Virus record (IMG/VR): IMGVR_UViG_3300009375_000001
Coordinates: 26,357-90,356 of that record
Strand: one strand, 5' to 3'
Origin: a virus
DNA: 64,000 bases
Positions 30,627 to 61,947 of this stretch are shown in pieces (the stretch's first letter is position 1; every line of letters starts with the position of its first letter). The notes under the pieces were generated by a model. It was not told where the DNA came from, made no database searches, and saw nothing but the letters and a program-made list of their open reading frames with translations. The position numbers and the translations under genes were made by a program.

Positions 30627-33600
30627 TTATACAATTGTTAATGCAGTTACTTCAGTAAACGTTTGACCGTCTAAGTTTGTTACTCTAACATCGTAAGTTC
30701 CTGCACTAAGTGTAGGTGAAACTGTAATGTTATTTGCATCAACTACCGTAACGGCAGGTGTATCAGCAACCGTAGTAGTACCTGATGAAATAAACTCAAC
30801 TACCGTATCTGCAACAAAACCAGCACCAGTAATAGTATTAATATCAACTACCGTAATAATACGCAATTGATCAGTAACTGTAAATGGTGCATCAGTAAAT
30901 GAAGCAGTATCACCGTCAGAGTTAGTAACAGTTAATACTTGTTCACCAAGTGGTGTAGTTGGAGCAACCTCAAACTTAATCTTATATGGTAAGTTGATGT
31001 TCTGAACGTTAGTTTGTTCAACACCACCTAAAATTACTGTGTAATCCATATCAATACCATCACCAACAATCTCTACCCATTGACCACCCATTTCATCAAC
31101 AACAGTCACATCCCATGTACCACGAGGTGCTTCACAATCTGTTTGATTGTTAACCGTTAAGAATGGTATATCAGTAGTACAATGCTCGAAGTCTTCTTCA
31201 ATCCAAGTTCCTCTAGGTCCTTCACAAACTGCTTGAGATGTTTGAATACCATCAGAACAATAGCCTGGGTCACCAGGCGTCCACGTATTACCTGCAGACG
31301 TCCAAGTATTACCAGCATTAGTCCAAGTATTTAGAGCAGTCCAAACGTTAGTTGGTGTCCAAGTACCACCAGCAGTTCCACATTCAGTATTAGTTGTACT
31401 AACACCATCGGAACAAGTACCGTTCGTCTCGTAACACTCACCAGAAGTAGTAGAAGTTCCATCAGAACAAGAACCACCAGAATCAATACAACCTAATTGG
31501 TTATCATTATATACTGGGTCAGAACAAGTACCAGAGGCAGTACAAGTATATTCAAACGAGTACGAAGGGTCAGAACAAGTACCAGCACCATTACAACTAT
31601 ATTCAGATGTATATAACGAGTCAGAACACGAACCTGGCGTTGCAACAGTCCACCAACCAAATACAGTTTCACAATCTATTTGAGTTGTGTAATCTATATT
31701 ACTACAATGAGCAGGGTCTGTAGGATACCAAACACCAACAATCTGTTCACAAGCGGCTTTAATTGTATATTCTTCAGTACCAAAATTAGTAGTACAAGAA
31801 GGAACAATAGAAGCAACACTTCTGTGACCAGTAGTAACATCAAATGTAGATAATGAAATAGGTGGGTTCATAATTTCGTTACCACGTCTATTAACGTCGT
31901 AGTAATCTTCAATTACAGACTCACCGAATGATTCCATAGTTCTATGACCACAAATAGGTTGTCCAGTGTAGTCTGCGTTTTCCATATCTAAATGATTAGA
32001 ATTCCATCTTTCTTCACCACCAATTGGAACACCCATAACATTCATAGAACGAGCAAGTAATAAATACTCGTCAGATGAAAGGTTAGGAATTGTCTTAACT
32101 GAAACATCGTCCCAATATGTGTAACCATTTCCAGTAGTAGAAAGTGTCAAGTAACAAGTACCAGCAACAGGTGATTTGAATACAAAGTCACGTGCTTCGT
32201 CGAATAGTCCATTAGTGTCAGTATCTTCTATAACTAAAGAACCATACTCCGAACTATCTGGAGTTGGACCTAGTTTAAGAATAGAATCTGTAGGTCTGTC
32301 AACTTTAACTGCAACCTTGTAACTCATATTGGCTTCAATTTCGAAATTGATATGTGCAATACCACGGTTGTTTGGACCAGTACCAGAAGTATAAATTTGT
32401 TTAGTATTTTGATCAACATATGCAACACCATCTTGTTGTGAAGCAAACGTCCAATTTTCAATAATTTCACGTACTGAAACATTATCAATAGAACCTTCAA
32501 AACCAACATTAGAATAGTATGGGTTATTTTCCTCTGGGTTGTTATTATCAACATCACCGATAAAGTGAATCTTTTGATCATATGAACCAGCACGAACGTG
32601 ATATACTTTCTCACCCTCTTGGTTTAAACCAGTAGTATCGTAATCAATAACAGGAATATCTTCCTCAACCAATTTAACACTATTAATAGCACCAGAATCG
32701 TTCATATTTAATACTAAATCTGTAGTAATTTCACCAATAAAGTTAATATGGCGAATACCAGACTTATTAATAGTACCCATTGTGTTTCCGTTGATTACAA
32801 AATCAATACTAGGTGTATTAATAGTAGTAGAAACCAACGTTAATTCATCGTGTCCTTCAGGATTTGATTGTTCTGTTATCGTATATTGATTAATACCACC
32901 AACATTTAACCACTTAATTGTAAATTCGTGTGTATATGTTTCTGCATGATAACCATCGGTTTGCTCGAATGTTAAACTGTTATTTGTGCTTTCTTGTAAC
33001 CATTGACCCTGCGACTCAGTCATTTGGAAAGTGTGTGGATGTGTACCAGTAGGGCCAGGTCCAACTTGGAAGTTAAGGATATTATCTTCAATTAAATCAC
33101 AATCAATAGTTAATTCATATTTAACACCACCAACTAATGCGTTAGATAGTGTGTAAGTAGAAGTATCATTAGAAGCAGAGTTAAATATCAGTTGTCCATC
33201 GATAATTTGAACAGTATCACTTGAATTAGTCCAATTAACTAAATCAGTATCTGTAATATCGAAGTTCCAATTAGAAATTAACTGATTTGGGTTAGTACCC
33301 AATGTTACTCTCATACGTCCAGTCATACCATTATTATCGTTATCTACATCTGCAAGTGAGTATTTAACTTCGTATAGTTTACCAGTATCAATAGAAACTG
33401 TTTGAGAAACTTCAGTAGAAGAAGCAATAGAACCATCTAAATATGCTTTTGCACCATCAGATGTCCAACCTTCACCCATAGACCAAGCATTCTGACCAGT
33501 AACACGTTCTTTAATAGAAATGTTATCAATCTTACCTTTACCACTATTAACTAATCTAAGAATAGTAGTATTTGCAGGAGCAACTAGAGTTTCAGAATAA

Positions 33601-36600
33601 TGACCAACTAAAGTGTTAGAAATACCTTGAACTATCGTGTCACCACGCAATTCTGCAGTAATAGAACCAATTTCAGCACCATATTGGTCTTTAAATGATT
33701 CAATAATATCGTATTTAACTTCGTATGTAACACCTTCGGAAATAGAACCAGTCACAATCTGCTCAATATAAGCGGCATCTGTAGTATTAGTAAATGCAGA
33801 ACCACCTTGAATCTGCCAAGAACCTGTTTCAGTCCATACAACTTCTTTAAATGTTACATTGTCTAAAATAATATCAGAACGTTGATCAATATCTACACTG
33901 AAGTAAACTTTAGCAAGTCCACCAATATCATTAGTAACAAGGAATTGCTCAGAACCAATACCTGGCACCATCGCAAGAGGGTCGATATAAGATACAGTAC
34001 CTAATTCAATATTCATTGCCTGTATTTCTGGTACAGCGCCAGGACCAGTAGCAGTAAGTGCATTATTAGTACCTAAAATATCTGCTTGAGTTCCTTTTAC
34101 TGGGAACGCATTTTCTGGGGCAGGTTGTACTTGGAAGTAATCTGTAGATGTACCATTATCAACAACAATCTTATCCTTAATATGTAATGGAGTGTACATA
34201 TTGTCTTGACCGTGATGGAAGTAAACAACAATATCATCACCAGCGTTAATAACAGGCATATCAAGGATATTGAATTGTCCCATCATTGAAGCGTGCCATG
34301 CACACTGATAGTACATAGTATCTGGCGCAACTTCTGGAACAGTCCATACTAACTCTTCGTATTTTGGAACACCAGAATCGTCATTACCCCACATATCAGT
34401 TCCTTCAGTCTGAACACCAGCACCTTCTTCTGCACGTGAGTTTTGAACACCTAATAAGTATTCACCAAAGTATGCACCTGGCGTGAAATGCGAACCGTCA
34501 TCTGTTGTAACGTAAAGTGGGTGTCCAGCAGAGTTAATCTTAAACGTGTATGTACCACCACGATATAAATTAATCGTTCTGTTAGTACCTTCAATCATAC
34601 CAGATTTATCAAAACGGTATAAACCACCATCATGTGTCATATGGTAAGCACCATTAACCTCGCCAGGTGGTACAAAAGGACCTAATCCAGTTGCACCATC
34701 TGAACCTGTCAAACCGAAATCTTCAGGAATAGTCCAAGTAAATTCTTTTGAGAAGTTACCAATAAATTGTGATTCTCTCCATTGTGCTAAGCCTGGGTCA
34801 TTAGTAGGGTTAAGTGCTTCACAGTTAGATTTAACGTCTTCACCATTATAATACCAACCATCAACGTCTAATTCTTCACACCAACCACCTAGTCCCATAC
34901 AAACAGGGAATGGTTCTGAACCTACCCACGTTCCTGGCTCTTCTTCAGTATTAACGAAGTCATTATGGTCACCAGCAGTAATTGTTAGACCGTGATTTGC
35001 TCTCATAGAAACACAATTGTTTCCATCGTTTTGTACCATACCTGCTTGAACAAGGTTATCCCACCCAGCACCAAGCATTGCTTTAACACCAGCGGCGTGC
35101 ATATACATAGGTGTTGGGTTACCAGTTACTGGGTCGTTTAATGTAATATGACCAGATGGATTCCAAGCATTATTAGTAAACTTATATGTACCACCACGGA
35201 ATAATTCAAAACCACCGTTAATACCATCATTACCACCGAAGTTGTCATAAGTGGCACCTGCTCTTTGATAAGGGAAGTAAGAATCTGCAGTATGATCCCA
35301 CCAAGACCATAACCAAGGCGAGTCTTGAGCACCTTCAACTGTTGTAAGTGTAGGGTCGTTCCAAGTTACAGTAGTGTTAGTATCTACTGTAATTTCCATA
35401 TTATCTGTCGGACCATAACCATCACCTAAAGCAACAACCGTATGGTCGTTCATAGCACCAGGCAATTCAGATGGTGTATATGGTTGTTCACCAGAAGGCA
35501 ACTGTACAATATCACCAACAGATAAACCATGATTGTTTGATTTAACTGTATTAGGACGACTCCAAAGAATTTCTATACCTTCAACATAAGGCGAACCAAT
35601 ATGATTAGTAATATCACGGTCAACTTGGAATCTGTAAGATGCCAAATCGGCAACCACTTCATACTCTTCAATAACATTATGGATTGTTGGGGTAGTACCG
35701 GCAGAATTTTCTAGTGGGTAAATAACTACTTCAGTTAATGCGAAGTGGTCTGCATCGATTACATAATCAACCCAGTAGTTTGTGTTACCGTGGTGGATTC
35801 CGTTATATACGTTTTCAAAGTGTACTCTATCGCCAGGAATTAATCCATGAGCGTCTGACTCAATACCCTTTTCTTTCTTAACATAACCATTAATATCAGT
35901 AAATGGTGTTGCAATAGCAGATGGGTTTAAATCATCACCACCCAATGCGAAGTCATATTTACCAACAGTGAATTGGTTACTGCCTGGATACCAAACTCTA
36001 CCCATATCGTGGATATGTTGGTCAACTTCAATAATTAAATATGTATCAGTAGCAGGGTCTAAACAACCAAATTCTACTGTATGGAAATGTTGTGGATCTG
36101 AAGTACCAAAGTCTGAAGTTCTAATAATGGTATTACCAGAAGTTGCACTCCAAGTACCATCAATATCTTGTGTTACATTTTGTAAAGGAGCGGCTTTTAG
36201 TGTGGCTTCATCGGCTTCAGTAATTAATATTTCATGATAGTGACCAAAGTTTACTAATTCTACTTTAGTACCACCAGTAATATCGTAATAATTTTCCATA
36301 CCGTGTGTATGTGAACCTGTCATACCAACAAGGAACATTGCACCGCCACCATTATTTGCACTTGCGTCCCAATCAAAAGTTGCAGTATGAGTATGACCTG
36401 CATCTTCAGAAGTAACAATCATAGTTGCTGTACTTGCTTGAATTTGAACATATTCTGCAGGTGTGATTTCGGCAGTATGAGTATGACCAATTTGATTTAC
36501 ATCATCAAAGAATACATCTACTCTTTCATTACCTTTTGCAACAGCAGTAATAATATAATCTTCCCAACGACGTTCACCAACACCAACAGAACCATCACCA

Positions 36601-38591
36601 GAACCGTAACCAGAACCACCCGAAGTTAATGTAACTGAATATACAGAACCATCTATGATAGCATTAGCAGCGCCGGCTACTGTTGGTGAACCACCTATGA
36701 AAGTAATAGTTGGTGGTGTGTGATAACCCGAACCCATATTTGTAACTGTAATTGTATCAATTTCACCTGTAGGTGTAATTGTGCAACTTGCTTCTGCTTG
36801 AATAGTATTAATAACTTCATACCAAGTTTCTAATGCAGTTTCACAAGAAGTTTGATCTGTGTATGTAGGATCTGTACATGAAGAATCTGGACCTAATTGA
36901 CCAACATCTGGTGCAGAAATTTGAATTGTTGGTGTTGATTGATAACCGGCCCCCACTTCGCTTAATTCAATACCCGACAATCCACCATCAAATTCTAATG
37001 TACCAGTAGCACCAGAACCACCACCACCAGTGATATAAAGTAGTGGTTTAGATGTATAATTCTGACCGTTTGCAGTTAATTCTAAACCACTTACTACACC
37101 AGCAGTAACATTTGCTGAAGCAGTTGCAGAAATGGTTTCTGCGTCAACACCTCCGGCAAAAGTAACAATCATTGGTACACCTGCTTCTGGATTAGTTTCT
37201 ACATCGCCCGATTGCATACTAATAACATTACCAATAGATAAATCGTGGTATAATGATTCAACAGCAGTATATGGCGCACCACCAGTAGTTGAAAGTGTAT
37301 TAGGTAATAATAAGTTAATAAAGTATGAGTTAGATAATGATGGTAACGAAACCATAGAACCATAGTTAATTGCCATTTTAACAGTATCGCCTGGATTCAA
37401 TCCGTGGTCAATAGAGTAAACATATCTATGATTAGTTTTTGTGGTCATTCTACCTTCTTCAAGAGGGTGGAAAGTACAATGGTAATAAATGTCGTGGTAT
37501 CCATCAACAACCCAATTCCATGTTTCGCCTGGGTTTAAATCTGGTGAAGTGAATGAAATGTTATCATCAGATACTGCGTTGTGTACCAAATAGTTACCAA
37601 CTGGGTTAGTAAAGATAAGTGTATCACCTTCACGTGCTTCTACGTGATAAGGAACAATGTCGTGTTGTTGTGTATTAGGGTTAGTTAATTCGCCCTCATC
37701 CCAAACGGCGTTATTTGCATAACAAGCCGCCTGATCAACTGCACCATTGCCTGGGTAACCATCACCATCATCATCACAATAGAATGAAGATGAGACAGGG
37801 TCGTAGTTCCATACGGCATCGTTTGCTTTACAGGCATTTTCCATTTCACCAAGTGCAAGGTTGTAGTCAACAGTGTTATCCCATTCTACCACTTCACCAT
37901 TACAAGTCGGAAGAACTAAATTCTCGTCTTCAATAATTGAAATAACAATTTGTTGTGGGTCTGGACCACCACCTGCCTCAGAAAACACCATTTTATCTGT
38001 AGATGGAATATCAACCATATTGAAACCACCGTTAGGTAAATCCCAATTTACATTATTAATTGTTAGGTCGTATGAGAATTTATATTGAGTGTTTGGTTTA
38101 AGAACAGTTTCAAACCATGCAACTGCAGTCTGTTGACCATCAGTATATGCACGAATAACTTCAGTTCCTTCAGTAGTAAAAATATCAAATAAGTATGCAA
38201 TACCATTCGCCCAAGGACGTGCAAGGTCTACAGGAACATCAAAACCAGAGTTCTTAACTAATTCAACTTCAAATGCGTCATTGTCAAAAGAAGAGTTTTG
38301 AACTAGGTTGGTTGTGTTATATGTAACATCAAAACCACCGTTAGTGATTAATTCAATTGGGTTAACAAACTCAGCAGATTTTTGTGCAACATTAATAATG
38401 AAATCTTTATATTCTTGAAGGTGCTCTAAATTTTCCATCACCTCTAAAGATTTTAACATAAGTGCTAAATCCTTAACCAAAAGGTCAGGTGAAGATAATT
38501 TAATATTCAAAGAATCTAAAAAATCAGATTTTTGTTGCTCAATAGTATTAAGTTCAGTCAGTGTGAACGTATGTCCAGTGTAATGTGCCAT
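30627..38591 (-). CDS. Giant 2654-residue modular tail protein with cupredoxin-like domains
   Basis: Modules in rough order are: a helical N-terminus (1-100); NGGFD-type carbohydrate-binding-like segments (100-220); Cys/Trp units and a calcium-loop-like DDDGDGYPGN near residue 275; a cupredoxin-like domain (about 310-385) with His in LVHNAVS and YYHCTFHPLEEGRM; Gly-Tyr repeats (500-650); His-x-His units (690-870). A second cupredoxin-like domain (about 1345-1440) has SAGHPLYV and YYQCAWHASMMGQ. NWNFD jelly-roll-like segments lie around 1770 and 2080. A dense Cys/Trp cluster (about 2264-2488) and two IPT/TIG-like domains (2500-2654) close the protein. It is surely a virion fibre; which T4 protein it replaces is unclear. 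Confidence 0.8.
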   Translation of the reverse strand: MAHYTGHTFTLTELNTIEQQKSDFLDSLNIKLSSPDLLVKDLALMLKSLEVMENLEHLQEYKDFIINVAQKSAEFVNPIELITNGGFDVTYNTTNLVQNSSFDNDAFEVELVKNSGFDVPVDLARPWANGIAYLFDIFTTEGTEVIRAYTDGQQTAVAWFETVLKPNTQYKFSYDLTINNVNWDLPNGGFNMVDIPSTDKMVFSEAGGGPDPQQIVISIIEDENLVLPTCNGEVVEWDNTVDYNLALGEMENACKANDAVWNYDPVSSSFYCDDDGDGYPGNGAVDQAACYANNAVWDEGELTNPNTQQHDIVPYHVEAREGDTLIFTNPVGNYLVHNAVSDDNISFTSPDLNPGETWNWVVDGYHDIYYHCTFHPLEEGRMTTKTNHRYVYSIDHGLNPGDTVKMAINYGSMVSLPSLSNSYFINLLLPNTLSTTGGAPYTAVESLYHDLSIGNVISMQSGDVETNPEAGVPMIVTFAGGVDAETISATASANVTAGVVSGLELTANGQNYTSKPLLYITGGGGSGATGTLEFDGGLSGIELSEVGAGYQSTPTIQISAPDVGQLGPDSSCTDPTYTDQTSCETALETWYEVINTIQAEASCTITPTGEIDTITVTNMGSGYHTPPTITFIGGSPTVAGAANAIIDGSVYSVTLTSGGSGYGSGDGSVGVGERRWEDYIITAVAKGNERVDVFFDDVNQIGHTHTAEITPAEYVQIQASTATMIVTSEDAGHTHTATFDWDASANNGGGAMFLVGMTGSHTHGMENYYDITGGTKVELVNFGHYHEILITEADEATLKAAPLQNVTQDIDGTWSATSGNTIIRTSDFGTSDPQHFHTVEFGCLDPATDTYLIIEVDQHIHDMGRVWYPGSNQFTVGKYDFALGGDDLNPSAIATPFTDINGYVKKEKGIESDAHGLIPGDRVHFENVYNGIHHGNTNYWVDYVIDADHFALTEVVIYPLENSAGTTPTIHNVIEEYEVVADLASYRFQVDRDITNHIGSPYVEGIEILWSRPNTVKSNNHGLSVGDIVQLPSGEQPYTPSELPGAMNDHTVVALGDGYGPTDNMEITVDTNTTVTWNDPTLTTVEGAQDSPWLWSWWDHTADSYFPYQRAGATYDNFGGNDGINGGFELFRGGTYKFTNNAWNPSGHITLNDPVTGNPTPMYMHAAGVKAMLGAGWDNLVQAGMVQNDGNNCVSMRANHGLTITAGDHNDFVNTEEEPGTWVGSEPFPVCMGLGGWCEELDVDGWYYNGEDVKSNCEALNPTNDPGLAQWRESQFIGNFSKEFTWTIPEDFGLTGSDGATGLGPFVPPGEVNGAYHMTHDGGLYRFDKSGMIEGTNRTINLYRGGTYTFKINSAGHPLYVTTDDGSHFTPGAYFGEYLLGVQNSRAEEGAGVQTEGTDMWGNDDSGVPKYEELVWTVPEVAPDTMYYQCAWHASMMGQFNILDMPVINAGDDIVVYFHHGQDNMYTPLHIKDKIVVDNGTSTDYFQVQPAPENAFPVKGTQADILGTNNALTATGPGAVPEIQAMNIELGTVSYIDPLAMVPGIGSEQFLVTNDIGGLAKVYFSVDIDQRSDIILDNVTFKEVVWTETGSWQIQGGSAFTNTTDAAYIEQIVTGSISEGVTYEVKYDIIESFKDQYGAEIGSITAELRGDTIVQGISNTLVGHYSETLVAPANTTILRLVNSGKGKIDNISIKERVTGQNAWSMGEGWTSDGAKAYLDGSIASSTEVSQTVSIDTGKLYEVKYSLADVDNDNNGMTGRMRVTLGTNPNQLISNWNFDITDTDLVNWTNSSDTVQIIDGQLIFNSASNDTSTYTLSNALVGGVKYELTIDCDLIEDNILNFQVGPGPTGTHPHTFQMTESQGQWLQESTNNSLTFEQTDGYHAETYTHEFTIKWLNVGGINQYTITEQSNPEGHDELTLVSTTINTPSIDFVINGNTMGTINKSGIRHINFIGEITTDLVLNMNDSGAINSVKLVEEDIPVIDYDTTGLNQEGEKVYHVRAGSYDQKIHFIGDVDNNNPEENNPYYSNVGFEGSIDNVSVREIIENWTFASQQDGVAYVDQNTKQIYTSGTGPNNRGIAHINFEIEANMSYKVAVKVDRPTDSILKLGPTPDSSEYGSLVIEDTDTNGLFDEARDFVFKSPVAGTCYLTLSTTGNGYTYWDDVSVKTIPNLSSDEYLLLARSMNVMGVPIGGEERWNSNHLDMENADYTGQPICGHRTMESFGESVIEDYYDVNRRGNEIMNPPISLSTFDVTTGHRSVASIVPSCTTNFGTEEYTIKAACEQIVGVWYPTDPAHCSNIDYTTQIDCETVFGWWTVATPGSCSDSLYTSEYSCNGAGTCSDPSYSFEYTCTASGTCSDPVYNDNQLGCIDSGGSCSDGTSTTSGECYETNGTCSDGVSTTNTECGTAGGTWTPTNVWTALNTWTNAGNTWTSAGNTWTPGDPGYCSDGIQTSQAVCEGPRGTWIEEDFEHCTTDIPFLTVNNQTDCEAPRGTWDVTVVDEMGGQWVEIVGDGIDMDYTVILGGVEQTNVQNINLPYKIKFEVAPTTPLGEQVLTVTNSDGDTASFTDAPFTVTDQLRIITVVDINTITGAGFVADTVVEFISSGTTTVADTPAVTVVDANNITVSPTLSAGTYDVRVTNLDGQTFTEVTALTIV
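31130..31800 (-). repeat. Cluster of Cys...Cys...Trp units in the giant fibre gene
   Basis: About 220 residues (2264-2488) contain roughly ten units of the type CSDP-YS-EYTC or CSDG-ST-ECGTAGGTW. They include four shortened copies in tandem (NVWTALNTWTNAGNTWTSAG). The DNA repeats are degenerate but obvious, with recurring TCAGAACAAGTACCAG. Confidence 0.8.
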
Positions 38592-44515: not shown

Positions 44516-45511
44516 TTAGAATTCAACTACAAGTTTCAAATCTTCAATCTGGTCAGCGGCACGTGTAATAGCACGTCTATTTTCAAGGTAAATTAACTGA
44601 CCTGAGTCTGTCTCCATTTGGGTATCTGCATTTGCATATACTGAACCTTGAGCACGTGTACCACCACCTGTCAGTTCTGGATTACGTAATAAACCAATTT
44701 GACGGAAGTCATCGTTTTCTGGGAAACCATCTGAAGTTTCCAATCTAACGTGAATTAGACCGTGGTGGCATTTAGCAGTAAAGATTGCATCAACATCACC
44801 GTATAATGATTGGTCTGAATCTGGTAACACTGCACTACCTGTAATAACTGGCATCCAGTCATTTGTAGTTGAGTTAATAATGTCATTTAATTCTAAAGTG
44901 TATAGATATTTCCAAACGTAACCATCTGAAGTTGAAATATCTGCACCATTGTTATGTCCAGTAGGTTCCTCAGAAGCACCAGTAGGTAACCAAAGACCAC
45001 CAGTAGTTGCTTCACAAACAGCACGAGAAGATGCAGTACCACTATCATAAACACCACCAATATAACATTTACCAGTAGAAGGCTCACCAACACATTGGTA
45101 AATAAGGTAATTTGAATTCATTACTGTTGAGTGTGAACCTGTTTTTGATACGAAAGAACGACCAGGCTCATCAATACCAGTAATACCATTGGCAACATCA
45201 CCATCAAACGCAAGTGTATCGCCAACACTCCAGTCTACACGTGGAAGTACAGGCGAAATATCATCATTCTGAATACGCTTTGCACCAACAATATCCAACC
45301 AATACTGATGTTCATCTTCATCTAATGGATCGGGTAGTGTGAATTGACCTGAAGATTCGTCATTACCTTGAGCATCATCTGCCCAAGCATTTGAACGTCC
45401 AAATCCAAGGTATAAGTAATTATCTGTGGCTACATTACCAGTAGTTTTGAACTGGTCAATGAACACCATCAAGTTTTGTGTTCTGAATTTACTGGTTACA
45501 ATAGCACCCAT
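44516..45511 (-). CDS. gp8: Baseplate wedge protein gp8
   Basis: The 331-residue length matches T4 gp8 (334). It starts MGAIVTSKFRTQNLMVFIDQ, like the AIVTSKFR start region of T4 gp8. It continues with PRVDWSVGD and NYLIYQCVGEPSTGKCYIGG, then DGYVWKYLYTLE. All have direct counterparts in T4 gp8 as I recall it, including a Cys...Cys...Trp unit (T4 CSIASLTDKDECLKLGGKW; here CEATTGGLW near residue 170). It lies between gp7 and the DUF4815 gene, matching T4 order 6-7-8. Two late promoter boxes lie upstream. Confidence 0.9.
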   Translation of the reverse strand: MGAIVTSKFRTQNLMVFIDQFKTTGNVATDNYLYLGFGRSNAWADDAQGNDESSGQFTLPDPLDEDEHQYWLDIVGAKRIQNDDISPVLPRVDWSVGDTLAFDGDVANGITGIDEPGRSFVSKTGSHSTVMNSNYLIYQCVGEPSTGKCYIGGVYDSGTASSRAVCEATTGGLWLPTGASEEPTGHNNGADISTSDGYVWKYLYTLELNDIINSTTNDWMPVITGSAVLPDSDQSLYGDVDAIFTAKCHHGLIHVRLETSDGFPENDDFRQIGLLRNPELTGGGTRAQGSVYANADTQMETDSGQLIYLENRRAITRAADQIEDLKLVVEF

Positions 45512-45603: not shown

Positions 45604-48600
45604 TTAAATACTTGTTGGCCACACGTTTGTTTCATCAACAATAGTTGTATGAATATGGTCACCAAGACCAGAACCTTGTGTACTAATTGACCATTGTCCA
45701 CCACTAGCTAATGAACCAACATATGAAATCAAGTTATGACCATCAAGGTTATTAGTTTGATTTAATAAATTATATTGACCACCAGAATAACCAATTGTAA
45801 CGTCGTGTGTATATAAATGTGCGTGAATTGTATCCCTTTGTTGAGTCGTTATGTTAGATCCAGTAACAAGTTGTGTGTATTCTGCAACACTCAACCAATA
45901 GTCATGGTCATGGAAACCACCAGTCAATAAGAACTTATGTATAGTAGTTCCTGTGCCTGGTATTTGGTCATATTGGTTTAATGGTTCAACTACAAACTCA
46001 CCATCTGTTCCTATGTATGGATTAAACTTAATTGTATATCCGTGATAGTGACTATCCGCACCATTTGGTGAATCGTAGAAAATAATTCCATAATTCACAT
46101 CTTGTGCATTAATCAACTCATTTGCCTGTCCAACAGTAATAGGTTCACACATTCTACCTGAGAATGGACCAACCGTATCCAAAGTACAACCTGTGTATAA
46201 TAAGTGGTCATGTGTACCTTCACCGTCAATAAACGTTCCTTGAATCCAAATTATAGGGGCATTGTTTGATTGTAATATACCATTAATTCTAGTTTGACGT
46301 TCTGCCATATCTTCAACTTGTTCTGTTGTAGAAGAAGTATCTTGTTCAGTAGTAGTCTGTGGGTTACCAACAACAGTTTCCATAGTACCATCTGAATAGT
46401 AAGTTTCAGTAGTAACAGTAGTAACAACCGTTGTAGTAACAGTAGTTGTTGTAGTTACGTTATCTAAGAACTTAGTAATTTCAGTGGTGTCTCCTACATT
46501 TGGTGTATCAGTAAGAGTCTCTACGATTGGATTCAACTCGGTAGAACTAGTATCAATAGACGTTTGTGGGTCTGACGTTAATACTTCTGGAGTCGTTACA
46601 ACTCTAGTCACATAAACAGCACCGCCAGTTTGTTGAGGCAATGTTTCGTCGTTTGGATTCCATTCAATAGTCAAGTTATGCCAATGAAGTCCTTCTGATA
46701 CGTTTAGTACAACAGATACGTAATATTTTAATGGATCTTGTGTAATATCTTCAATACCACCACGAATCCAAGTTATTGAATTAGTACAATAGAATTTATT
46801 TTCAACATCATCATACTTAACTGTATAGTCGTGGAAGTGAGCACCCTCAATAGAATCGTAAATAATAACTTCTTCTACAACACCATTAATCAAGTCCATT
46901 GCGTTTTGAACACTTAAACCGTCGGCATAATCAATTTCATTATTCCAAGCGAATGGTCCAACAACAGTTCCGTTGTGGAAATGAGGGTGTGTACCGCCAG
47001 GGTATGGGTAACCAGGCGAAGCAAATACAGGTAAATCGTTACTATTCAGTTCTTGGTTAAAACCATTAATAGATAATTGATTCGATATTTCTGTAGTATG
47101 TGCGTGTGTTCTAGGTGTTAATGATTGAAATTGAGCACCATCTTCTGATACCCACTGTTCAACATCTTCGGCAATAAATGCTAAACCAACATCATCATAT
47201 GTAACTCTAATACCATGATAATGATCACCGTTCGCAATTGAAGAATATAACATAACCGATTCAACATCACCATTAATTAAGTCTGTTGTTTGCTCATCTG
47301 TCAGTGCTTCAGAAATACGTCCTGCATTAACACCAATAGTATCTAGATCTGTACCGTTAAATGAATGTAAATGATCTGGTTTATTACCTTCAAGGTTATC
47401 CCAATCGTGGGCAAGACCTAGTGTAACATCAGGTGCTGTAAATAACGGAGTACCATTCCAACCAAGGTTAGTAGTGATACCATTTACAGTTAATGTGTGT
47501 TCGTGGTTCTTTTGTTCATCTAAAATTATAGTCCATTCACCAGTCCCCATAAGATCCCTATACTCACCAACCTCTTGTGCAAGGAATTGTTGTGTTGCAG
47601 GATTCCATAAAACCTTAAACTCGTGGTAATGTAAATGCGAACCACTATCACTAATTGATGAATAAATAGTAACTTCATTAACAACACCGTTTGCAAGTTC
47701 TTCTGCCTGCAATCTAGTTAATGGTGTTGATAGACGTCCTTGGTTTGTACCATAAGTATCTAATACAGACGAGTCGAAGTAATGTATATGTGTATTTTCA
47801 CCATACTCGTTAGCACCTAAAATAGCAACAGATGGAGCAGTTTCAATGTACGTATATGAAGTATCCTCTTCTACTGGTGGTGCCCAAGGCGTATCTGCAC
47901 CAATATCATATGGCATCCACTGTTCTTCGTCTTCATTATAATACCAACCTGCAGAAGAACCAAGTAATGTTTGTGTATCTGTTTCACCACTCCAAGCACT
48001 GTTTACTGGATGAATATGTGATGCAGGATCATTCCAAGACCAAATTGGCCAGAATGCATCATAGTTTTGCATTTCAATATCTGAAACTTCAACTGCCTGG
48101 AATAAATTCTCCTCGTCATACGTTACTTCGTAACCGTGTATATGAGCAGTTTCTGTTGAAGGTATCTGGTTATTTGCAGTAGGTATATCTTCAGAATTAT
48201 AAGAATCTGTAATTTTATACATTGATGTATTACCTACACCAGAACCTTGGAAAGTATCAATACCAGTTCTAGTAGTAAATATAATTTCACCATCATTAGT
48301 CTCACCCATAGTAAGAATAGACTCGCCCATTGTTGTTAAATCAACAATTTCAGTAGTCGGATCCCAAATAGATAGTGGTGTTCTGTCATATGTTAAATCA
48401 GTTCCATACTCTACAAATTCTAATACATCATGTCCTTCAGGATTAGTTTGACCAATTAAAACAAACTCTTGATTTTCAGAACTCCAAATAATAGTAAATG
48501 TATGGAGGTAGAATTCTGAATGAACTGTATCTGATTGTATTTGTACAACAGGACTGCCTGGGTTATCTTTAAGAAACTGTACGTGTGCTCCTGTCAAGTC

Positions 48601-51600
48601 AACCGTATGACTATGTGTTGACCCATTTATTGCATTCGGTAGAACATTAAAGTGGGCAGAGTTCCCATCAAAATTTTCACTTAATGTGTATAAATGACCA
48701 CTTGTACCTGTCCAAGTGGTTGACCAATCACCAAATATGTATTTACCTTGTAATTCTGTAATAGACCCTTTATAAACAAATCCACCCAATATAGATATAC
48801 CAGTTCCGTGTGAATATTCGTGAATAGGTTCTTTTAAACTTGTTAAGTAATCAAATGTATTTGTGTGTCCTAAATCAATGGCAATTTGGTCGATGATTGT
48901 TTGGTCTTCTTCATACTCGTGGTATGCTTCCATTACTCTCCAACCGTAGTTTCCACCTGCTTCTACAATGTTGATTTCTTCAAACTTGTCTTGTCCAACA
49001 TCAGCACACCACAACTTGCCATCTTGAGCAAATGAGAATCTCCACGGATTTCTAAATCCATAAGCATAAATTTCAGGTCTAAATGAAGTTGCTTCTGGTT
49101 GACCTTCTTTATAAATTGAATTGATAAATGGGTTATCAGAAGGAATAGTGTACGGCATACTATTAACAGTATCTTCTGTAACATCTACTCTTAAAATAGT
49201 ACCTAATAAATTTGTAGGGTTTTGTGCATTACCATAAACACCGTGTCCACCATGACCTTCCATTGAAGAAGTATCACCTGCAGAACCACCATCACCAAGT
49301 CCGATATACAACATACCGTCTGGTCCGAATACTAGTTCACCACCATTATGATTAAAGTCTGGTTGTGGAATAGTAAATAAGTTTCTTTCAGTAGATAAAT
49401 CTGTACAAGTAAGTTTATCTGCATCAGTAACAAACTCTGATATAACAGTAGTCGATAATGGGAAGCCCCAAGCGCCTGTACCACCACCTTGTTCAGTCAT
49501 GTAATAAACGTAAAATTTACCATTTGTATCAAATTGAGGGTGGAAACATAAACCAAGAACACCACGTTCGTCATAGTTCGCAAACGGACCTAAACCAATA
49601 GTATGTTGCAATGAAGTAAGATCCATAAAGGTAGTCTTAGTACCATCATTCTCATTCATTAACTTAATGATACCAGATTGGTCAACAATAGCAACCGTGT
49701 CTGTTTGTACTGAAGAAGGAAATGCTTCTACAACCACAATATCAGTATCAGTACCTAAAGAATCAACACCAATTAAATCACCAGTTGCACCAACTCCAGG
49801 CACTTGAGCAATATGATTTGATGAATATATTTCAACAAAGTCCACATTAGGATTTAAAACCTCTGGCCAAACTTGATTATGTTGTAATGTAATATCTGGG
49901 TTCATTAAGAAACCACCAACATAAGAATCAGGCACATCCATAAATACGTTCTGTGGCCAAGGGTTTCCTAAGAAATCCATACCACCCATAACAGTAGGAT
50001 CTACTGGTAATGATGGGTCATAGTTAAAACATAACCAAGTAGTTATTGGTGTGTAAACAAAACCGTGTGTTAGTGGATTGTTCTGCCAATCTGTGTGTTC
50101 TTTCCAATCGGGGTCGTAAGTTACTTCATATTCGTGATAGTGACCACTTGTAATTTCACCACGAATGTTAGTAATAGTACCACCAATAGTAATATCTTGT
50201 TCGTCTGTAAATACGTGACCTTCATCGTCTAAATAACCAACATTATCATAAAGAGTAACCGAAGCAACATCACCGTCAATAAGTTGTCTTGCTTGTTCAC
50301 GTGTAAGTGGGTCGGCAAATCGTCCACGTTGTCTGTCTACTAATTCACCTTTAACGAAATATGAAACGTGTCCTTTCATTGGAGGTAACGATTCTAATGT
50401 GAAGTAACCCCATGAATGGCCAACTGCATTACACGACGCTTCAGATGAAGTACAATAACTAGGTGTTTCCCAAGTCCAAGTTCCACCAGCAGCCTCACAT
50501 TGCATATGGTCAGGTGATGTTCCGTCCGAACAAGCAGAAGGTGGATTTGCCACCCAAGTATCGCCCATATCTTCACAAACAGATTGATCCATATTACTCA
50601 TATTAGAACACATAGGAGGCATCCAGAACATAGGGTTTCCACCGTATGACGAAATACAATCTGTAGGATTATCGTATTGAGAATTAAAACATTCTCCCAT
50701 ACCATTATAACGTGGGTCTTGTTGTGAATCTACCCAGTCACCCCATAAAGGCGGAGTCATAATACCACCACATACAAGGTTAGCACCGTGCATATGAGGA
50801 ATTTCAAAGTAATCTCTGTCAATTAGTCTTCTTGCCTCGTTGTGGTTCATACCACGAGCAGTTACTGGTTTTCCATGTCTTGTAAAGTTTTTAATTTCTT
50901 CACCATTAAAATAATGTACGTGGAATGCAGATGCACCAACATCCATAACAGGTAGTTCTAAACCTTTTGTAATTACAGTTTCTACTAACGGAGCGAAACC
51001 ATCTTCTCTACCGTGTGAGTGAATTCTATTACCAACTTCTTCATCAAATGCACCAATATGTACTGAATCAATTACATCATTTGTTTTACCATAAATGTTT
51101 TGTATTCTTCCAGATTCTCTATTTGCTTCAAAATAAGCATATGATTTTTCAGGTGCATATTCTGCCTCTGGCATGAAAGAGTCAATAAACTCCAATACCT
51201 TACGCATTGATTTAAATACACCAAGTTCCCAAAGGTCACAACTAATCATTCGACCATCTGTAGTTGAATCTAAACTATCTACAATCTCTAATTCCTGTGT
51301 TGCAGGTGGGAATTCATCAATAGGTAATACTTTAAGTTGTTTAGTAAACTCGAGCATTGTAGTTTCTGGGAATGCAATCAATTGGTTTTGGATATCATCA
51401 TTCATCCAAGAAACTGTGTACAATTTCTCCCTAACTGTTGTACCAATAATACCACCATCAATCTCAAGGTTTACTGATAAGTGATCTGAAGGTTTATCCC
51501 AATCTTCTGCTGGAATTAATTGTCCACTGGCTTCTAAGGCAGACATCATTTCGATTACATATTCTTCAAAACCTTTATCTAAATAAACACCAAATCCTTC

Positions 51601-53175
51601 ATGTGCGTGTCCAAGTGTACCATGCTGTTCCGATTCATTATCCCATATATCCATTGCAACATCAAGATAAGAGAATAAGAAAATTTGTAACTTAACATAA
51701 TCCGTTGGAATTTCAACCGTCATATCTACTGACGATTGGAATGCAAATTCAGCAAATAATTTAAGTCCTACTGGGTGAACTAATTTCTTTAATACTTCAC
51801 GGTAAGATTGAATAGGAACGTCTGACTTAATTACATATGAATAATCTTGGTAATATTCATTATCCTGTAACTTACGGTCTGAAGATAAGAACGCTGAAGA
51901 GTCTAACCAACTACCATTAGGCACCCAAACTGCAGTGTCTACGTTTGGTTGATCTAATAAATTTAAACATTCTTCACGTGTAGTTGGTTGTGTTGTTCCT
52001 ACTTCTAAAAAACTATTTTCAACAGTTTGTACCCCTTTAGTTACAGTAAGGAAAGGAAACCAAAATAAATGTGACGATTCACCATAATGAACAGAAGTTG
52101 GATCATCTGCTTCTGGATGCATGGCATTAGTACATTCTCGTTCAGTTAGAAATGTACCTAATGGCCACTCATTATTTGATGAACAAAAACTTTCAGTTGG
52201 CAGCCATGATGGATTACCTTCTGGGTCGGGGTTATAATTCAATGCAGATGTATTATATACTCTTTCACCTTCAATAAATTCACCTTGAACTTCTGATATA
52301 TTAAATCTAGTCCAATTTACATTCATCACATCAACGTGGGCAGTTGCACCAGAAGTTTCACCAACAATAGTATTATTTGTTGCGTGTTTAACTTCATGTC
52401 GTGGACCAGTAATATTAATCCACTGATCTGTCCATTTACCACCATTAACAGAACACTCACCATCAGAACGTATTCCTTCTGATGTAATAAATGCAGTAGT
52501 TGGTGCATTACCAGATGTACCTACATCTTCATGAATTTCTTCACCTTGAATAAAAGAACCATCAACTTCTGTTAATAGTAACTTTGTGGAATCTGAAATA
52601 GAAATACCTTCATCAATGTCAACAAACGCTGTTGCACCTGATGTTTGACCTATGATCTTTTTATTATAAAATTTCTTTGTGTTAGTTGCAGTACCATCAA
52701 CATTTATCCATTGTGGTTCGTACCAATCTGAACCAGACGCCTTCCACATAAACTCTTTAGGATATGCGACTTTAACCTCTGTATTAAAGTCACGTCTAAA
52801 CATAAAGTCTAATGCAGACTCAGTACCCTTTTGTCTATATGTTGGTTGAATATTTTTAGTAAGAAATGCTTTATCAGTTGTCGGAACTGTTGGGTCAATA
52901 GCAGTTGTAGGTGTACTTGATAAGTATTGTTTTTCAAACTCTGGAATAAATTGATCCAAAGCATGGTCAATATCTACATTTTCAATAAGGTCTGTTATTT
53001 GAGTATATTCACCTAATTCACCATTTACACTTGTTTCACGCTCCAAGTATTCAAAATACTTTTGCATGAATGTGATAAACATTGGGTGGTCTTCACGGAC
53101 ATAATCCGGCACCATACGGTCAACGAAAATTGATAAAAACTTCGCTGGATTATGTGAAAATTTTTCGTTTGACAT
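45604..53175 (-). CDS. gp7: gp7-like baseplate wedge protein with propeller and His-rich extension
   Basis: The protein has 2523 residues; T4 gp7 has 1032. Residues 1-480 correspond to the C-terminal wedge part of gp7 (YVREDHPMFITFMQKYFEYL, RQKGTESALDFMFRRDF, LVHPVGLKLFAEFAF). They include two TSGATA-V repeats and Cys/Trp units. Residues about 850-925 hold more Cys/Trp units. Residues about 1125-1500 look like a glucose/sorbosone dehydrogenase six-bladed propeller (NHNGGELVFGPDGMLYIGLG, YGFRNPWRFSF, ADVGQDKFEEIN). His-x-His modules with LINGxV helices fill about 740-1040 and 1505-2523, with a Thr-rich linker near 2242-2285. It sits exactly between gp6 and gp8, as gene 7 does in T4. Confidence 0.85.
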   Translation of the reverse strand: MSNEKFSHNPAKFLSIFVDRMVPDYVREDHPMFITFMQKYFEYLERETSVNGELGEYTQITDLIENVDIDHALDQFIPEFEKQYLSSTPTTAIDPTVPTTDKAFLTKNIQPTYRQKGTESALDFMFRRDFNTEVKVAYPKEFMWKASGSDWYEPQWINVDGTATNTKKFYNKKIIGQTSGATAFVDIDEGISISDSTKLLLTEVDGSFIQGEEIHEDVGTSGNAPTTAFITSEGIRSDGECSVNGGKWTDQWINITGPRHEVKHATNNTIVGETSGATAHVDVMNVNWTRFNISEVQGEFIEGERVYNTSALNYNPDPEGNPSWLPTESFCSSNNEWPLGTFLTERECTNAMHPEADDPTSVHYGESSHLFWFPFLTVTKGVQTVENSFLEVGTTQPTTREECLNLLDQPNVDTAVWVPNGSWLDSSAFLSSDRKLQDNEYYQDYSYVIKSDVPIQSYREVLKKLVHPVGLKLFAEFAFQSSVDMTVEIPTDYVKLQIFLFSYLDVAMDIWDNESEQHGTLGHAHEGFGVYLDKGFEEYVIEMMSALEASGQLIPAEDWDKPSDHLSVNLEIDGGIIGTTVREKLYTVSWMNDDIQNQLIAFPETTMLEFTKQLKVLPIDEFPPATQELEIVDSLDSTTDGRMISCDLWELGVFKSMRKVLEFIDSFMPEAEYAPEKSYAYFEANRESGRIQNIYGKTNDVIDSVHIGAFDEEVGNRIHSHGREDGFAPLVETVITKGLELPVMDVGASAFHVHYFNGEEIKNFTRHGKPVTARGMNHNEARRLIDRDYFEIPHMHGANLVCGGIMTPPLWGDWVDSQQDPRYNGMGECFNSQYDNPTDCISSYGGNPMFWMPPMCSNMSNMDQSVCEDMGDTWVANPPSACSDGTSPDHMQCEAAGGTWTWETPSYCTSSEASCNAVGHSWGYFTLESLPPMKGHVSYFVKGELVDRQRGRFADPLTREQARQLIDGDVASVTLYDNVGYLDDEGHVFTDEQDITIGGTITNIRGEITSGHYHEYEVTYDPDWKEHTDWQNNPLTHGFVYTPITTWLCFNYDPSLPVDPTVMGGMDFLGNPWPQNVFMDVPDSYVGGFLMNPDITLQHNQVWPEVLNPNVDFVEIYSSNHIAQVPGVGATGDLIGVDSLGTDTDIVVVEAFPSSVQTDTVAIVDQSGIIKLMNENDGTKTTFMDLTSLQHTIGLGPFANYDERGVLGLCFHPQFDTNGKFYVYYMTEQGGGTGAWGFPLSTTVISEFVTDADKLTCTDLSTERNLFTIPQPDFNHNGGELVFGPDGMLYIGLGDGGSAGDTSSMEGHGGHGVYGNAQNPTNLLGTILRVDVTEDTVNSMPYTIPSDNPFINSIYKEGQPEATSFRPEIYAYGFRNPWRFSFAQDGKLWCADVGQDKFEEINIVEAGGNYGWRVMEAYHEYEEDQTIIDQIAIDLGHTNTFDYLTSLKEPIHEYSHGTGISILGGFVYKGSITELQGKYIFGDWSTTWTGTSGHLYTLSENFDGNSAHFNVLPNAINGSTHSHTVDLTGAHVQFLKDNPGSPVVQIQSDTVHSEFYLHTFTIIWSSENQEFVLIGQTNPEGHDVLEFVEYGTDLTYDRTPLSIWDPTTEIVDLTTMGESILTMGETNDGEIIFTTRTGIDTFQGSGVGNTSMYKITDSYNSEDIPTANNQIPSTETAHIHGYEVTYDEENLFQAVEVSDIEMQNYDAFWPIWSWNDPASHIHPVNSAWSGETDTQTLLGSSAGWYYNEDEEQWMPYDIGADTPWAPPVEEDTSYTYIETAPSVAILGANEYGENTHIHYFDSSVLDTYGTNQGRLSTPLTRLQAEELANGVVNEVTIYSSISDSGSHLHYHEFKVLWNPATQQFLAQEVGEYRDLMGTGEWTIILDEQKNHEHTLTVNGITTNLGWNGTPLFTAPDVTLGLAHDWDNLEGNKPDHLHSFNGTDLDTIGVNAGRISEALTDEQTTDLINGDVESVMLYSSIANGDHYHGIRVTYDDVGLAFIAEDVEQWVSEDGAQFQSLTPRTHAHTTEISNQLSINGFNQELNSNDLPVFASPGYPYPGGTHPHFHNGTVVGPFAWNNEIDYADGLSVQNAMDLINGVVEEVIIYDSIEGAHFHDYTVKYDDVENKFYCTNSITWIRGGIEDITQDPLKYYVSVVLNVSEGLHWHNLTIEWNPNDETLPQQTGGAVYVTRVVTTPEVLTSDPQTSIDTSSTELNPIVETLTDTPNVGDTTEITKFLDNVTTTTTVTTTVVTTVTTETYYSDGTMETVVGNPQTTTEQDTSSTTEQVEDMAERQTRINGILQSNNAPIIWIQGTFIDGEGTHDHLLYTGCTLDTVGPFSGRMCEPITVGQANELINAQDVNYGIIFYDSPNGADSHYHGYTIKFNPYIGTDGEFVVEPLNQYDQIPGTGTTIHKFLLTGGFHDHDYWLSVAEYTQLVTGSNITTQQRDTIHAHLYTHDVTIGYSGGQYNLLNQTNNLDGHNLISYVGSLASGGQWSISTQGSGLGDHIHTTIVDETNVWPTSI

Positions 53176-53190
53176 ATTGTTTTACCAGAA

Positions 53191-54942
53191 TTATTCTTGT
53201 AGTGAAACCATTGTTACTTTACTATTATTTAGTACAAGTAGGTTATCACGTTGTGCTATAATATCGTTACTTTGTGGTGTACCATATAAACTAATAACTG
53301 TATTATTATCAACCGTTGGATTAAAACCAATTAACTCAATAATACCCTTATCATAATCAATAGTACCTTGTGTAGTGTTTAAGAAATTTTCAGAAACAAT
53401 ATCATAAAGTAATATATTACCTTGTCCATCATCAAGTAAAGCAAATTGAGTAGAATTTAATGTACTACCAAATACAGAGGATACTGCAGTACCTGGCTTA
53501 AAAGAATTATTAAACTTAAATATGTAGTTACCTGTCGTATTAGATGCCTGAATATAAAACTTCTTATACATCTTAACAGTTGTAAGGTTATTACTAATAG
53601 ATGGATCTGAAGAATCAATAGTATTCATTAATTGTGAATAACGTAATGTAACTTTAAATTGTGATATTTCACTTTCAATAAATAATTTAATATCATCAAT
53701 AATTTTACTCTGAATAGATGCAGATGATTTAGATGTATTTAATGGGTTGTATTTAACTGTAGTTTCAATATCTAAATATGTGTATTCAGGTGCAACAATA
53801 ATTGGATTAATTGCCAACATATTATACTTAGAAAGAATATCTTTAGTAAGTTTATCTTTAGTAATTGGGGACAACTCAAGTCCGTGTTTTGGTTTGATTG
53901 AAATAAACACAGCACCATATTGTGGTGGATCGTTATCTTCACCACCCCATACTGAAATAGAATCAATGTTAGGGTATTTCTCAATAAGAATAGTTTTATA
54001 ATCTTCTGCTGTTACTGCTCTGTCCTGTCTTTCATATGCACGTGGAGCCGTCATTTTAATAGTTTCTGTACTTTCTTCATTAGAACCTAAAGATGAAATA
54101 TTTACAGTTTCAATTATAACCCTGTTTTCATCATACACACCTGCAATAGTAGTATCTAATGAAAATACTTGATCGTATAACGATGATGTATAGTTACCTT
54201 CGGACCCAACAGTAGATAAGTATTTAACTGAAATATTTTCACTATCATTTGGAATTTTACCAAAAATACCATTACCGAAATAAATCTCTGTTACACCATC
54301 TAAACCCTCTTGTATAAAAAATGTTTGTGATGTGGGTGTTAATGATGACAAGTTTTGGTCATTATACCAACCACCATCCATTGTAATAGTGTCCCTATCG
54401 CAACTTTTATCCTTAATAATAAATTGTTTGGTTGTGTTATCTCCATATGTACCAAAATCAACAGTCATCAATTTACCTTGATGAACACGTATTTCTGTAT
54501 AAAAATCACCAGCTTCATCAGGGAAAACATTAACATTTTCTTTACTAATGAAATTTAGTGTCTTACCATTAATTGTCGATACAAACGAAGTACCTGCTTC
54601 AATAGTAATTACCGATGGGTTATAACCATCTGTGTTAAATGTTAGTTTTATAATTGCTTCGGCGGCAGTAACAGATTTGGGTACATAACCTAATGCCTTC
54701 GCATGAGAAACAACTGAATTTCTCAGTGTTGCCGTGTCTAAGAAAGATTCATTGATTGCCATATTAGTATGGAAACCCATATAATGAGTTGTGTATGCCA
54801 TAACATCTAGCATAACACTCATACCAGAACCTTCAAAGTCATAGTCAGTAAAGTCGTCCTGACCCTTTAGGAAATCACGTATATTACCTTTAATTTTATC
54901 AAACTCTAAATCTGAAATATTTAATTGTTTAGTGTCGTTCAT
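53191..54942 (-). CDS. gp6: Baseplate wedge protein gp6
   Basis: The protein has 583 residues (T4 gp6 has 660). The N-terminal half has the baseplate J/gp6 pattern: IKGNIRDFLKGQDDFTDYDF, YTTHYMGFHTNMAINESFLD, TATLRNSVVSHAKALGYVP. The middle has YERQDRAVTAEDYKTILIEK, also typical. Gp6 dimers form the ring that ties the wedges together and is central to contraction. It follows gp25 by 5 nt, as 25 and 6 are adjacent in many contractile systems. Confidence 0.95.
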   Translation of the reverse strand: MNDTKQLNISDLEFDKIKGNIRDFLKGQDDFTDYDFEGSGMSVMLDVMAYTTHYMGFHTNMAINESFLDTATLRNSVVSHAKALGYVPKSVTAAEAIIKLTFNTDGYNPSVITIEAGTSFVSTINGKTLNFISKENVNVFPDEAGDFYTEIRVHQGKLMTVDFGTYGDNTTKQFIIKDKSCDRDTITMDGGWYNDQNLSSLTPTSQTFFIQEGLDGVTEIYFGNGIFGKIPNDSENISVKYLSTVGSEGNYTSSLYDQVFSLDTTIAGVYDENRVIIETVNISSLGSNEESTETIKMTAPRAYERQDRAVTAEDYKTILIEKYPNIDSISVWGGEDNDPPQYGAVFISIKPKHGLELSPITKDKLTKDILSKYNMLAINPIIVAPEYTYLDIETTVKYNPLNTSKSSASIQSKIIDDIKLFIESEISQFKVTLRYSQLMNTIDSSDPSISNNLTTVKMYKKFYIQASNTTGNYIFKFNNSFKPGTAVSSVFGSTLNSTQFALLDDGQGNILLYDIVSENFLNTTQGTIDYDKGIIELIGFNPTVDNNTVISLYGTPQSNDIIAQRDNLLVLNNSKVTMVSLQE

Positions 54943-61506: not shown

Positions 61507-61947
61507 ATGGCATATAAAGGCAAATACAAAGTTAAAAACCGCGACAAATACGTTGGTAATGTAGATAATGTACAATACCGAAGTTTGTGGGAACGAACCT
61601 TTATGCGTTATTGTGATAATAATCCATCAGTGATTGCTTGGAATAGTGAAGAAGTGGTAATACCATACTATAGTCCAGTTGATAATAAAATGCATAGATA
61701 TTATGTAGATTTTCTTATCAAAACCCGCGATACTGATGGCAACATCAAGCATACGTTGATTGAGGTTAAACCAGATATACAAACCCGTCCACCCAAAATG
61801 GGAAAGACTGCAAAGAGTAAACATAGATATTTAAGAGAACTAAAGACTTGGAAAGTTAATGAAGCGAAATGGAAAGAAGCAGAAGAGTTTTGTAAAGATA
61901 GAAAATGGGAATTTAAGATTTTAACAGAAAAACATTTAGTAAAGTAA
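61507..61947 (+). CDS. gp4: Head completion protein gp4
   Basis: The 146-residue length is close to T4 gp4 (150). The sequence follows T4 gp4 closely: YKGKYKVKNRDKYVGN, YRSLWERTFMRYCDNNPSVI, EEVVIPYYSPVDNKMHRYYV, TLIEVKPDIQTRPPK and the end WEFKILTEKHL. It has a TnsA-like nuclease pattern with Glu in SLWER, Asp in YYVDF and EVK. In T4 it acts after packaging on head completion. A + strand late box ends 6 nt before the ATG with no Shine-Dalgarno sequence between them, so the mRNA may start at or 1 nt before the ATG. Confidence 0.95.
   Translation: MAYKGKYKVKNRDKYVGNVDNVQYRSLWERTFMRYCDNNPSVIAWNSEEVVIPYYSPVDNKMHRYYVDFLIKTRDTDGNIKHTLIEVKPDIQTRPPKMGKTAKSKHRYLRELKTWKVNEAKWKEAEEFCKDRKWEFKILTEKHLVK

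Follow-up and report, generated by a model that had tools for sequence, protein, structure and literature searches.

A glucose/sorbosone dehydrogenase-type beta-propeller with a conserved pocket in the gp7-like baseplate wedge protein of marine-type T4-like viruses

The 64,000-nucleotide stretch analysed here (the window) comes from a virus record of 90,356 bases, whose replication and tail genes are of T4 type (UvsX, DNA polymerase B, gp5, baseplate protein). On the minus strand, a 2523-residue open reading frame occupies the gp7 slot, with a gp6-like gene on one side and gp8 on the other, the latter followed downstream by a gene for a DUF4815 protein (Table 1). The wedge profiles PF23786 and phrog_17744 together with the gp6-gp7-gp8 order identify its product as a T4 gp7-type wedge protein. 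Caulobacter phage Cr30 has the three wedge genes in identical order, and its gp7-like gene, 2304 bases long, encodes a plain protein. The N-terminal region of the window protein (residues 12-232) gave tblastn matches in 459 phage records, mostly of cyanophages, and the viruses that carry the propeller-bearing gp7 described below form a marine-type family of T4-like bacterial viruses. In T4-like phages known solely through metagenomes, few parts are as poorly understood as those that bind receptors.

Table 1. Genes, domains and pocket residues at the propeller locus (window coordinates; pocket equivalences in sGDH numbering)
Feature	Position	Strand	Basis
gp8-like baseplate wedge, downstream neighbour	44516..45511	-	PF09215 Phage-Gp8 4.8e-34
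gp7-like baseplate wedge protein carrying the propeller, 2523 aa	45604..53175	-	gp6-X-gp8 order
C-terminal decoration of HxH-containing segments, residues ~1678-2510	45646..48144	-	motif list; alignment
Last propeller blade, residues ~1598-1660	48196..48384	-	aligns to C-terminal blade of bacterial relatives (GFGEDxxGELYV...G.xYKI)
S1619-I1620-L1621 at Arg406-x-Arg408 position, PQQ anchor absent	48313..48321	-	alignment
HxH-containing module inside the propeller, residues ~1514-1592	48400..48636	-	alignment of relatives and model
sGDH/HHIP-fold propeller, first and main part, residues ~1125-1512	48640..49803	-	PF07995, PDB phmmer, AlphaFold and Foldseek
S1485 at Lys377 position, PQQ anchor absent	48721..48723	-	alignment
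G1394-Q1395, equivalent to Gly247-Pro248 (main-chain Ca ligands)	48991..48996	-	invariant in phages
R1375-N1376, equivalent to Arg228-Asn229 (around PQQ ketones)	49048..49053	-	invariant in phages
D1295, equivalent to Asp163	49291..49293	-	invariant in 23 phage frames
H1276, equivalent to base His144	49348..49350	-	invariant in 23 phage frames
Second wedge region, residues 424-476	51748..51906	-	PF23786 Baseplate_wedge 3.5e-10
N-terminal wedge region, residues 12-232	52480..53142	-	phrog_17744 baseplate wedge 1.4e-52
gp6-like baseplate wedge, upstream neighbour	53191..54942	-	phrog_219 1.7e-156

A first-pass annotation of this DNA had proposed that a sugar-dehydrogenase-type propeller is built into the gp7-like protein, and the motifs it quoted were all found in this open reading frame, between window positions 49566 and 48724. 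Both halves of that proposal held, as the wedge protein also gave a Pfam match to PF07995 (glucose/sorbosone dehydrogenase) over residues 1166-1482 (E=1.9e-32; 113.3 bits versus a cut-off of 25). NCBIfam returned nothing above cut-off, with TIGR03606 (sGDH-family PQQ dehydrogenase) scoring 83 bits versus a curated cut-off of 434.55. A phmmer search of the PDB found HHIP as the best solved relative (1.5e-24), then sGDH (3e-13). The structure of residues 1120-1665, modeled by AlphaFold from a 15-row alignment, reached pLDDT 71 and pTM 0.72; its quality was poor around model residues 275-341, part of the pocket wall, where pLDDT drops locally below 50. When the model was compared to the PDB with Foldseek, HHIP again came first (1e-20), followed by sGDH, Asd and related PQQ enzymes (1e-13 to 5e-11). 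The top 35 matches were all of HHIP, sGDH or Asd type, separated by a gap from unrelated WD40 proteins at 2e-6, so the objection that the domain might have a different fold was not upheld.

The propeller was previously described as complete at residues ~1125-1500; the family and fold stand, but its extent does not, because the last blade follows an inserted HxH-containing module. The whole six-bladed domain spans residues ~1125-1660, at about window positions 49803-48196. The HxH insert was found in all relatives aligned and separates the last blade from the rest of the propeller. An HxH module modeled with AlphaFold reached pLDDT 82, and no PDB fold matched it better than E=0.05. The HxH segments of the C-terminal decoration and of residues 719-1014 matched nothing in Pfam or in cultured phages, and a confident model had no counterpart among PDB folds. 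Every HxH histidine of one decoration segment is invariant across 14 phages, which suggests that these histidines form metal sites. Numerous HxH motifs in degenerate segments also occur at residues 719-1014. In some relatives the propeller loops tolerate further large insertions, with dockerin-like segments resembling EF-hands in L008 and L021, Cys-rich repeats in L009 and an insert of ~130 residues in L025.

The propeller was present in all 23 non-identical relatives whose frames were aligned, and its conservation equals that of the N-terminal wedge region. Scans of viral contigs yielded overlapping sets of 26 and 32 loci, all with the domain, at 63-100% identity. Over 30 IMG/VR contigs share the fusion, on which ground chance or misassembly was rejected. 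With the gp7 N-terminus as query, a scan gave 80 loci, and among its uncut frames at 55% identity or above the propeller was found in all except three (L081-L083). These three encode gp7 proteins of 709-712 residues with 60% identical N-termini that end where the decoration would start, with gp6 and gp8 in place. Since they keep the gp6-gp7-gp8 order without the whole decoration, the latter is apparently unneeded for the wedge, and the propeller module would appear to be accessory to assembly. Such natural relatives serve as controls, and distant gp7-like proteins (37% identity or below) also have no propeller.

The viral carbohydrate genes reported from mangrove soil viromes include PF07995/AA12 members (PMC6460857), which raises the alternative of an auxiliary metabolic enzyme serving host metabolism. 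Here every aligned relative has the domain embedded in a structural wedge protein and none has it as a free gene, and this fusion in practice refutes a metabolic role, which we regard as very improbable. Cultured-phage records gave only two kinds of match, both rejected as phage examples: those to 'Acinetobacter phage MD-2021a' are yliI-type bacterial genes with no tail protein context, and an unannotated faecal fragment has many overlapping GTG frames that resemble high-GC bacterial DNA, and no tail context. L226 from the viral scan was likewise rejected, as it looks bacterial, with no PHROG hits. Among strong matches in the viral structure library BFVD, no Caudovirales protein carried the domain and only giant-virus proteins did; these GSDH-domain proteins of Pithovirus LCPAC and Marseillevirus LCMAC are viral and share the fold (E 1e-11 to 3e-23), but belong to giant viruses of eukaryotes and have no phage tail fusion. 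An open-access literature search found no glucose/sorbosone dehydrogenase domain in a phage tail protein, in line with the earlier remark that no described phage example was known.

Scanning viral contigs with a mixed bacterial and phage alignment uncovered a second phage clade. In L212, L214 and L215-L217 the propeller forms the C-terminal part of a tail-fibre-like protein of ~680 residues (phrog_2710 tail fiber N-terminus in L215, L212 and L214); the neighbouring genes encode a tail fibre and a baseplate wedge/tail fibre connector. This architecture, exemplified by L215:7104-9128, was also seen in L228-L233. Elsewhere, the propeller ends a 484-residue protein next to a tail-fibre gene (L189), and a different gp7-like wedge of 2852 residues that lies between gp6 and gp8 (L210). 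Judged from gene context, the propeller thus seems to recur repeatedly in receptor-facing proteins.

The closest relatives of the phage propellers are secreted PF07995 proteins of Planctomycetota and Verrucomicrobiota (for example L168, L146 and L147; 38-39% identity). In a maximum-likelihood tree each phage group formed a clade (100/100), both grouped with one, cupredoxin-bearing, bacterial branch (97/98), and the two phage clades were united in none of 200 bootstrap trees. The second clade is therefore apparently a separate capture, giving at least two captures on the sampling used, which covered Planctomycetota and Verrucomicrobiota plus E. coli YliI only, so that the donor may lie elsewhere.

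For analysis of the pocket, residues were numbered as in sGDH, and the C-terminal part used for this matched the PDB chain letter for letter. The first-pass annotation had equated a His, an Asp and an Arg with His144, Asp163 and Arg228 of sGDH, and this was borne out by the 19-residue spacing of H1276 and D1295, identical to that in sGDH, and by the match of R1375/N1376 to R228/N229, all four residues being invariant in phages. Together with the Gly247 equivalent, they are nearly invariant in 39 bacterial relatives as well, all of which have the His. The Tyr343 equivalent is invariant in every phage copy, and Pro248 is replaced by Gln in phages, as it is in S. coelicolor Asd (3das, likewise G-Q). 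Across 12 phage propellers from both clades, seven of eight catalytic-face positions (those of His144, Asp163, Arg228, Asn229, Gly247, Pro248, here Gln, and Tyr343) are invariant versus 81 of 429 columns overall (hypergeometric 4.7e-5, a value that treats alignment columns as independent, which they are not, and applies to residues conserved family-wide). None of the three PQQ-carboxylate anchors is kept in these 12 propellers, and no phage row has R or K at the Arg406, Arg408 or Lys377 positions. The proposed enzyme is supported in part only: the His, Asp, Arg-Asn and Gly247 equivalents are in place, but S1619, L1621 and S1485 stand at the Arg406, Arg408 and Lys377 positions.

Comparison with solved proteins shows what this mixed pattern can distinguish. 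sGDH (A. calcoaceticus, 1c9u) and the Asd structures (YliI 2g8s, 3a9g, 3das, 2ism) share six blades and the His144/Asp163/Arg228/Asn229/Gly247 set, with Glu at the Asp163 position in YliI; unlike them, the phage copy has no Arg406/Arg408/Lys377 anchors and sits in a baseplate protein. HHIP (7pgm/3ho5/2wg3) is the best PDB match by both sequence and fold, belongs to the same family and keeps the His/Asp pair, but it is an animal secreted regulator with no part in a virion, and has His-Asp ('GLHDPGR') instead of the Arg228/Asn229 that phages keep. Because this non-enzyme retains both His and Asp, that pair alone cannot tell an enzyme from a binder; Arg-Asn would separate the two, and phages keep it.

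The earlier suggestion of a PQQ-type enzyme can now be weighed more closely. In its fuller form, the propeller would be a working virion oxidoreductase with a modified mode of binding for Ca and for PQQ (or some other quinone), and would oxidise host-surface sugars during adsorption, as a redox counterpart to tail-spike depolymerases. As expected of an enzyme, neither phage clade varies at His, Asp, Arg-Asn or the Ca-carbonyl Gly, while the missing Arg406, Arg408 and Lys377 equivalents argue against it: all proven or solved enzymes that cover the Arg406-Arg408 stretch (YliI, 7cdy, 2ism, 3a9g, sGDH) have R-x-R, and the PQQ carboxylates of sGDH are held by Lys377 and Arg408 (PMC6881789). By our own reading, Arg406 is the equivalent of the conserved Arg621 of that study. 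AA12 enzymes, on the other hand, anchor the PQQ carboxylates by partly different residues (PMC6881789), and the Planctomycetota and Verrucomicrobiota PF07995 proteins have the same pocket pattern with the anchors missing in nearly all (loci L146-L186). Unlike the phage domain, these bacterial proteins are free and secreted, and some combine the propeller with cytochrome c or with cupredoxin and CHRD domains; fused electron-carrier motifs were found in 16 of 41 (cytochrome c in 13, cupredoxin in three). Given these fused carriers, a lack of anchors need not mean a lack of redox chemistry, which the subfamily may perform with a differently held cofactor. The bacterial group is itself of interest, lacking the textbook PQQ anchors yet frequently fused to electron carriers.

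The grouping of both phage clades with the cupredoxin-bearing branch fits a redox function, as does L210, which pairs its propeller with a cupredoxin-like YYCHNHAAM motif. In L210:597-9155, cupredoxin-like stretches (YYYCTAH, YYYCHNHAAM) precede the C-terminal GSDH propeller, a pairing also seen in secreted bacterial proteins. A motif search found no cytochrome or cupredoxin motif in gp7-clade proteins or in the window genome, which counts against an oxidoreductase, and the particle would need to acquire PQQ. Overall we consider a working virion oxidoreductase unlikely, although a serious alternative, and the more specific version in which tail fibres and the baseplate rim bear an enzyme that holds its cofactor unlike known enzymes and oxidises sugars in adsorption is less probable still. 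The other suggestion, of a retired enzyme, does not fit well either, as the residue pattern was inherited from the bacterial subfamily and the catalytic face is undecayed.

Conservation of the propeller to the level of the N-terminal wedge region, the His and Asp that HHIP also keeps, and the placement by the model of an extra module between two blades each count in favour of a structural spacer or protein-protein docking domain, such as a fibre platform, which would bind no ligand and keep its pocket residues for folding. Against this, phages retain Arg-Asn even though the HHIP fold survives without them, the same pocket occurs in a separate phage clade at a different, terminal position, and relatives apparently assemble the same wedge without a propeller. 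We judge a purely structural role improbable, and favour pocket binding over an active virion oxidoreductase, and that in turn over a structural role.

By a narrow balance of probability, then, the propeller is an adsorption module of enzyme origin, its pocket still intact, that contacts a ligand of the host surface. The sGDH-fold propeller, which is built into the gp7-like wedge decoration, would have been captured from the bacterial secreted PF07995 subfamily. In T4, six gp7 monomers lie at the baseplate periphery (PMC3004832), so by analogy the propeller would be displayed at the baseplate rim. Its central pocket, in which H, D, R-N, G-Q and Y are invariant, may engage a ligand on the host surface, probably a glycan, and the inserted HxH module with neighbouring HxH segments could supply the remaining, possibly metal-binding, adhesive surface. 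Binding is preferred over turnover since the protein has neither the known PQQ-carboxylate anchors nor a fused electron carrier; the conservation of the pocket is equally expected of an enzyme, which weighs against the binding reading. HHIP, itself a binding protein, provides one parallel: its propeller binds heparin as well as Hedgehog, so this fold can bind a sulphated glycan (PMC8660895).

Enzyme-derived propellers are already known as phage host-recognition parts, the sGDH/HHIP type not being among the named precedents. Phi11 Gp45, PRD1 P2 and phiKZ gp131C carry enzyme-like beta-propellers in receptor-binding or baseplate-periphery proteins (PMC4901313), but these are five- or seven-bladed and of other families, with none of sGDH/HHIP type. 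The enzyme-like cavity of phi11 Gp45 could accommodate GlcNAc (PMC4901313), and the phage pocket described here may be used in a similar way. The propeller is a self-contained, expressible domain whose pocket is conserved, and it seems to have entered host-facing proteins on at least two occasions; it makes it directly testable whether a sugar-dehydrogenase fold in virions is a lectin or a redox enzyme.

Three additional genes were noted. A 592-residue protein near baseplate hub/assembly-like genes (L227:7053-8831) has an Asd-type propeller that keeps R-x-R, with Leu for the catalytic His (TTLNGG). In the window, the tail region encodes a 2654-residue protein with no Pfam match (30627-38591, minus strand), and a small gene beside T4-type baseplate genes (61507-61947, plus strand) encodes a TnsA-like endonuclease N-terminal domain (PF08722, 1.1e-24).
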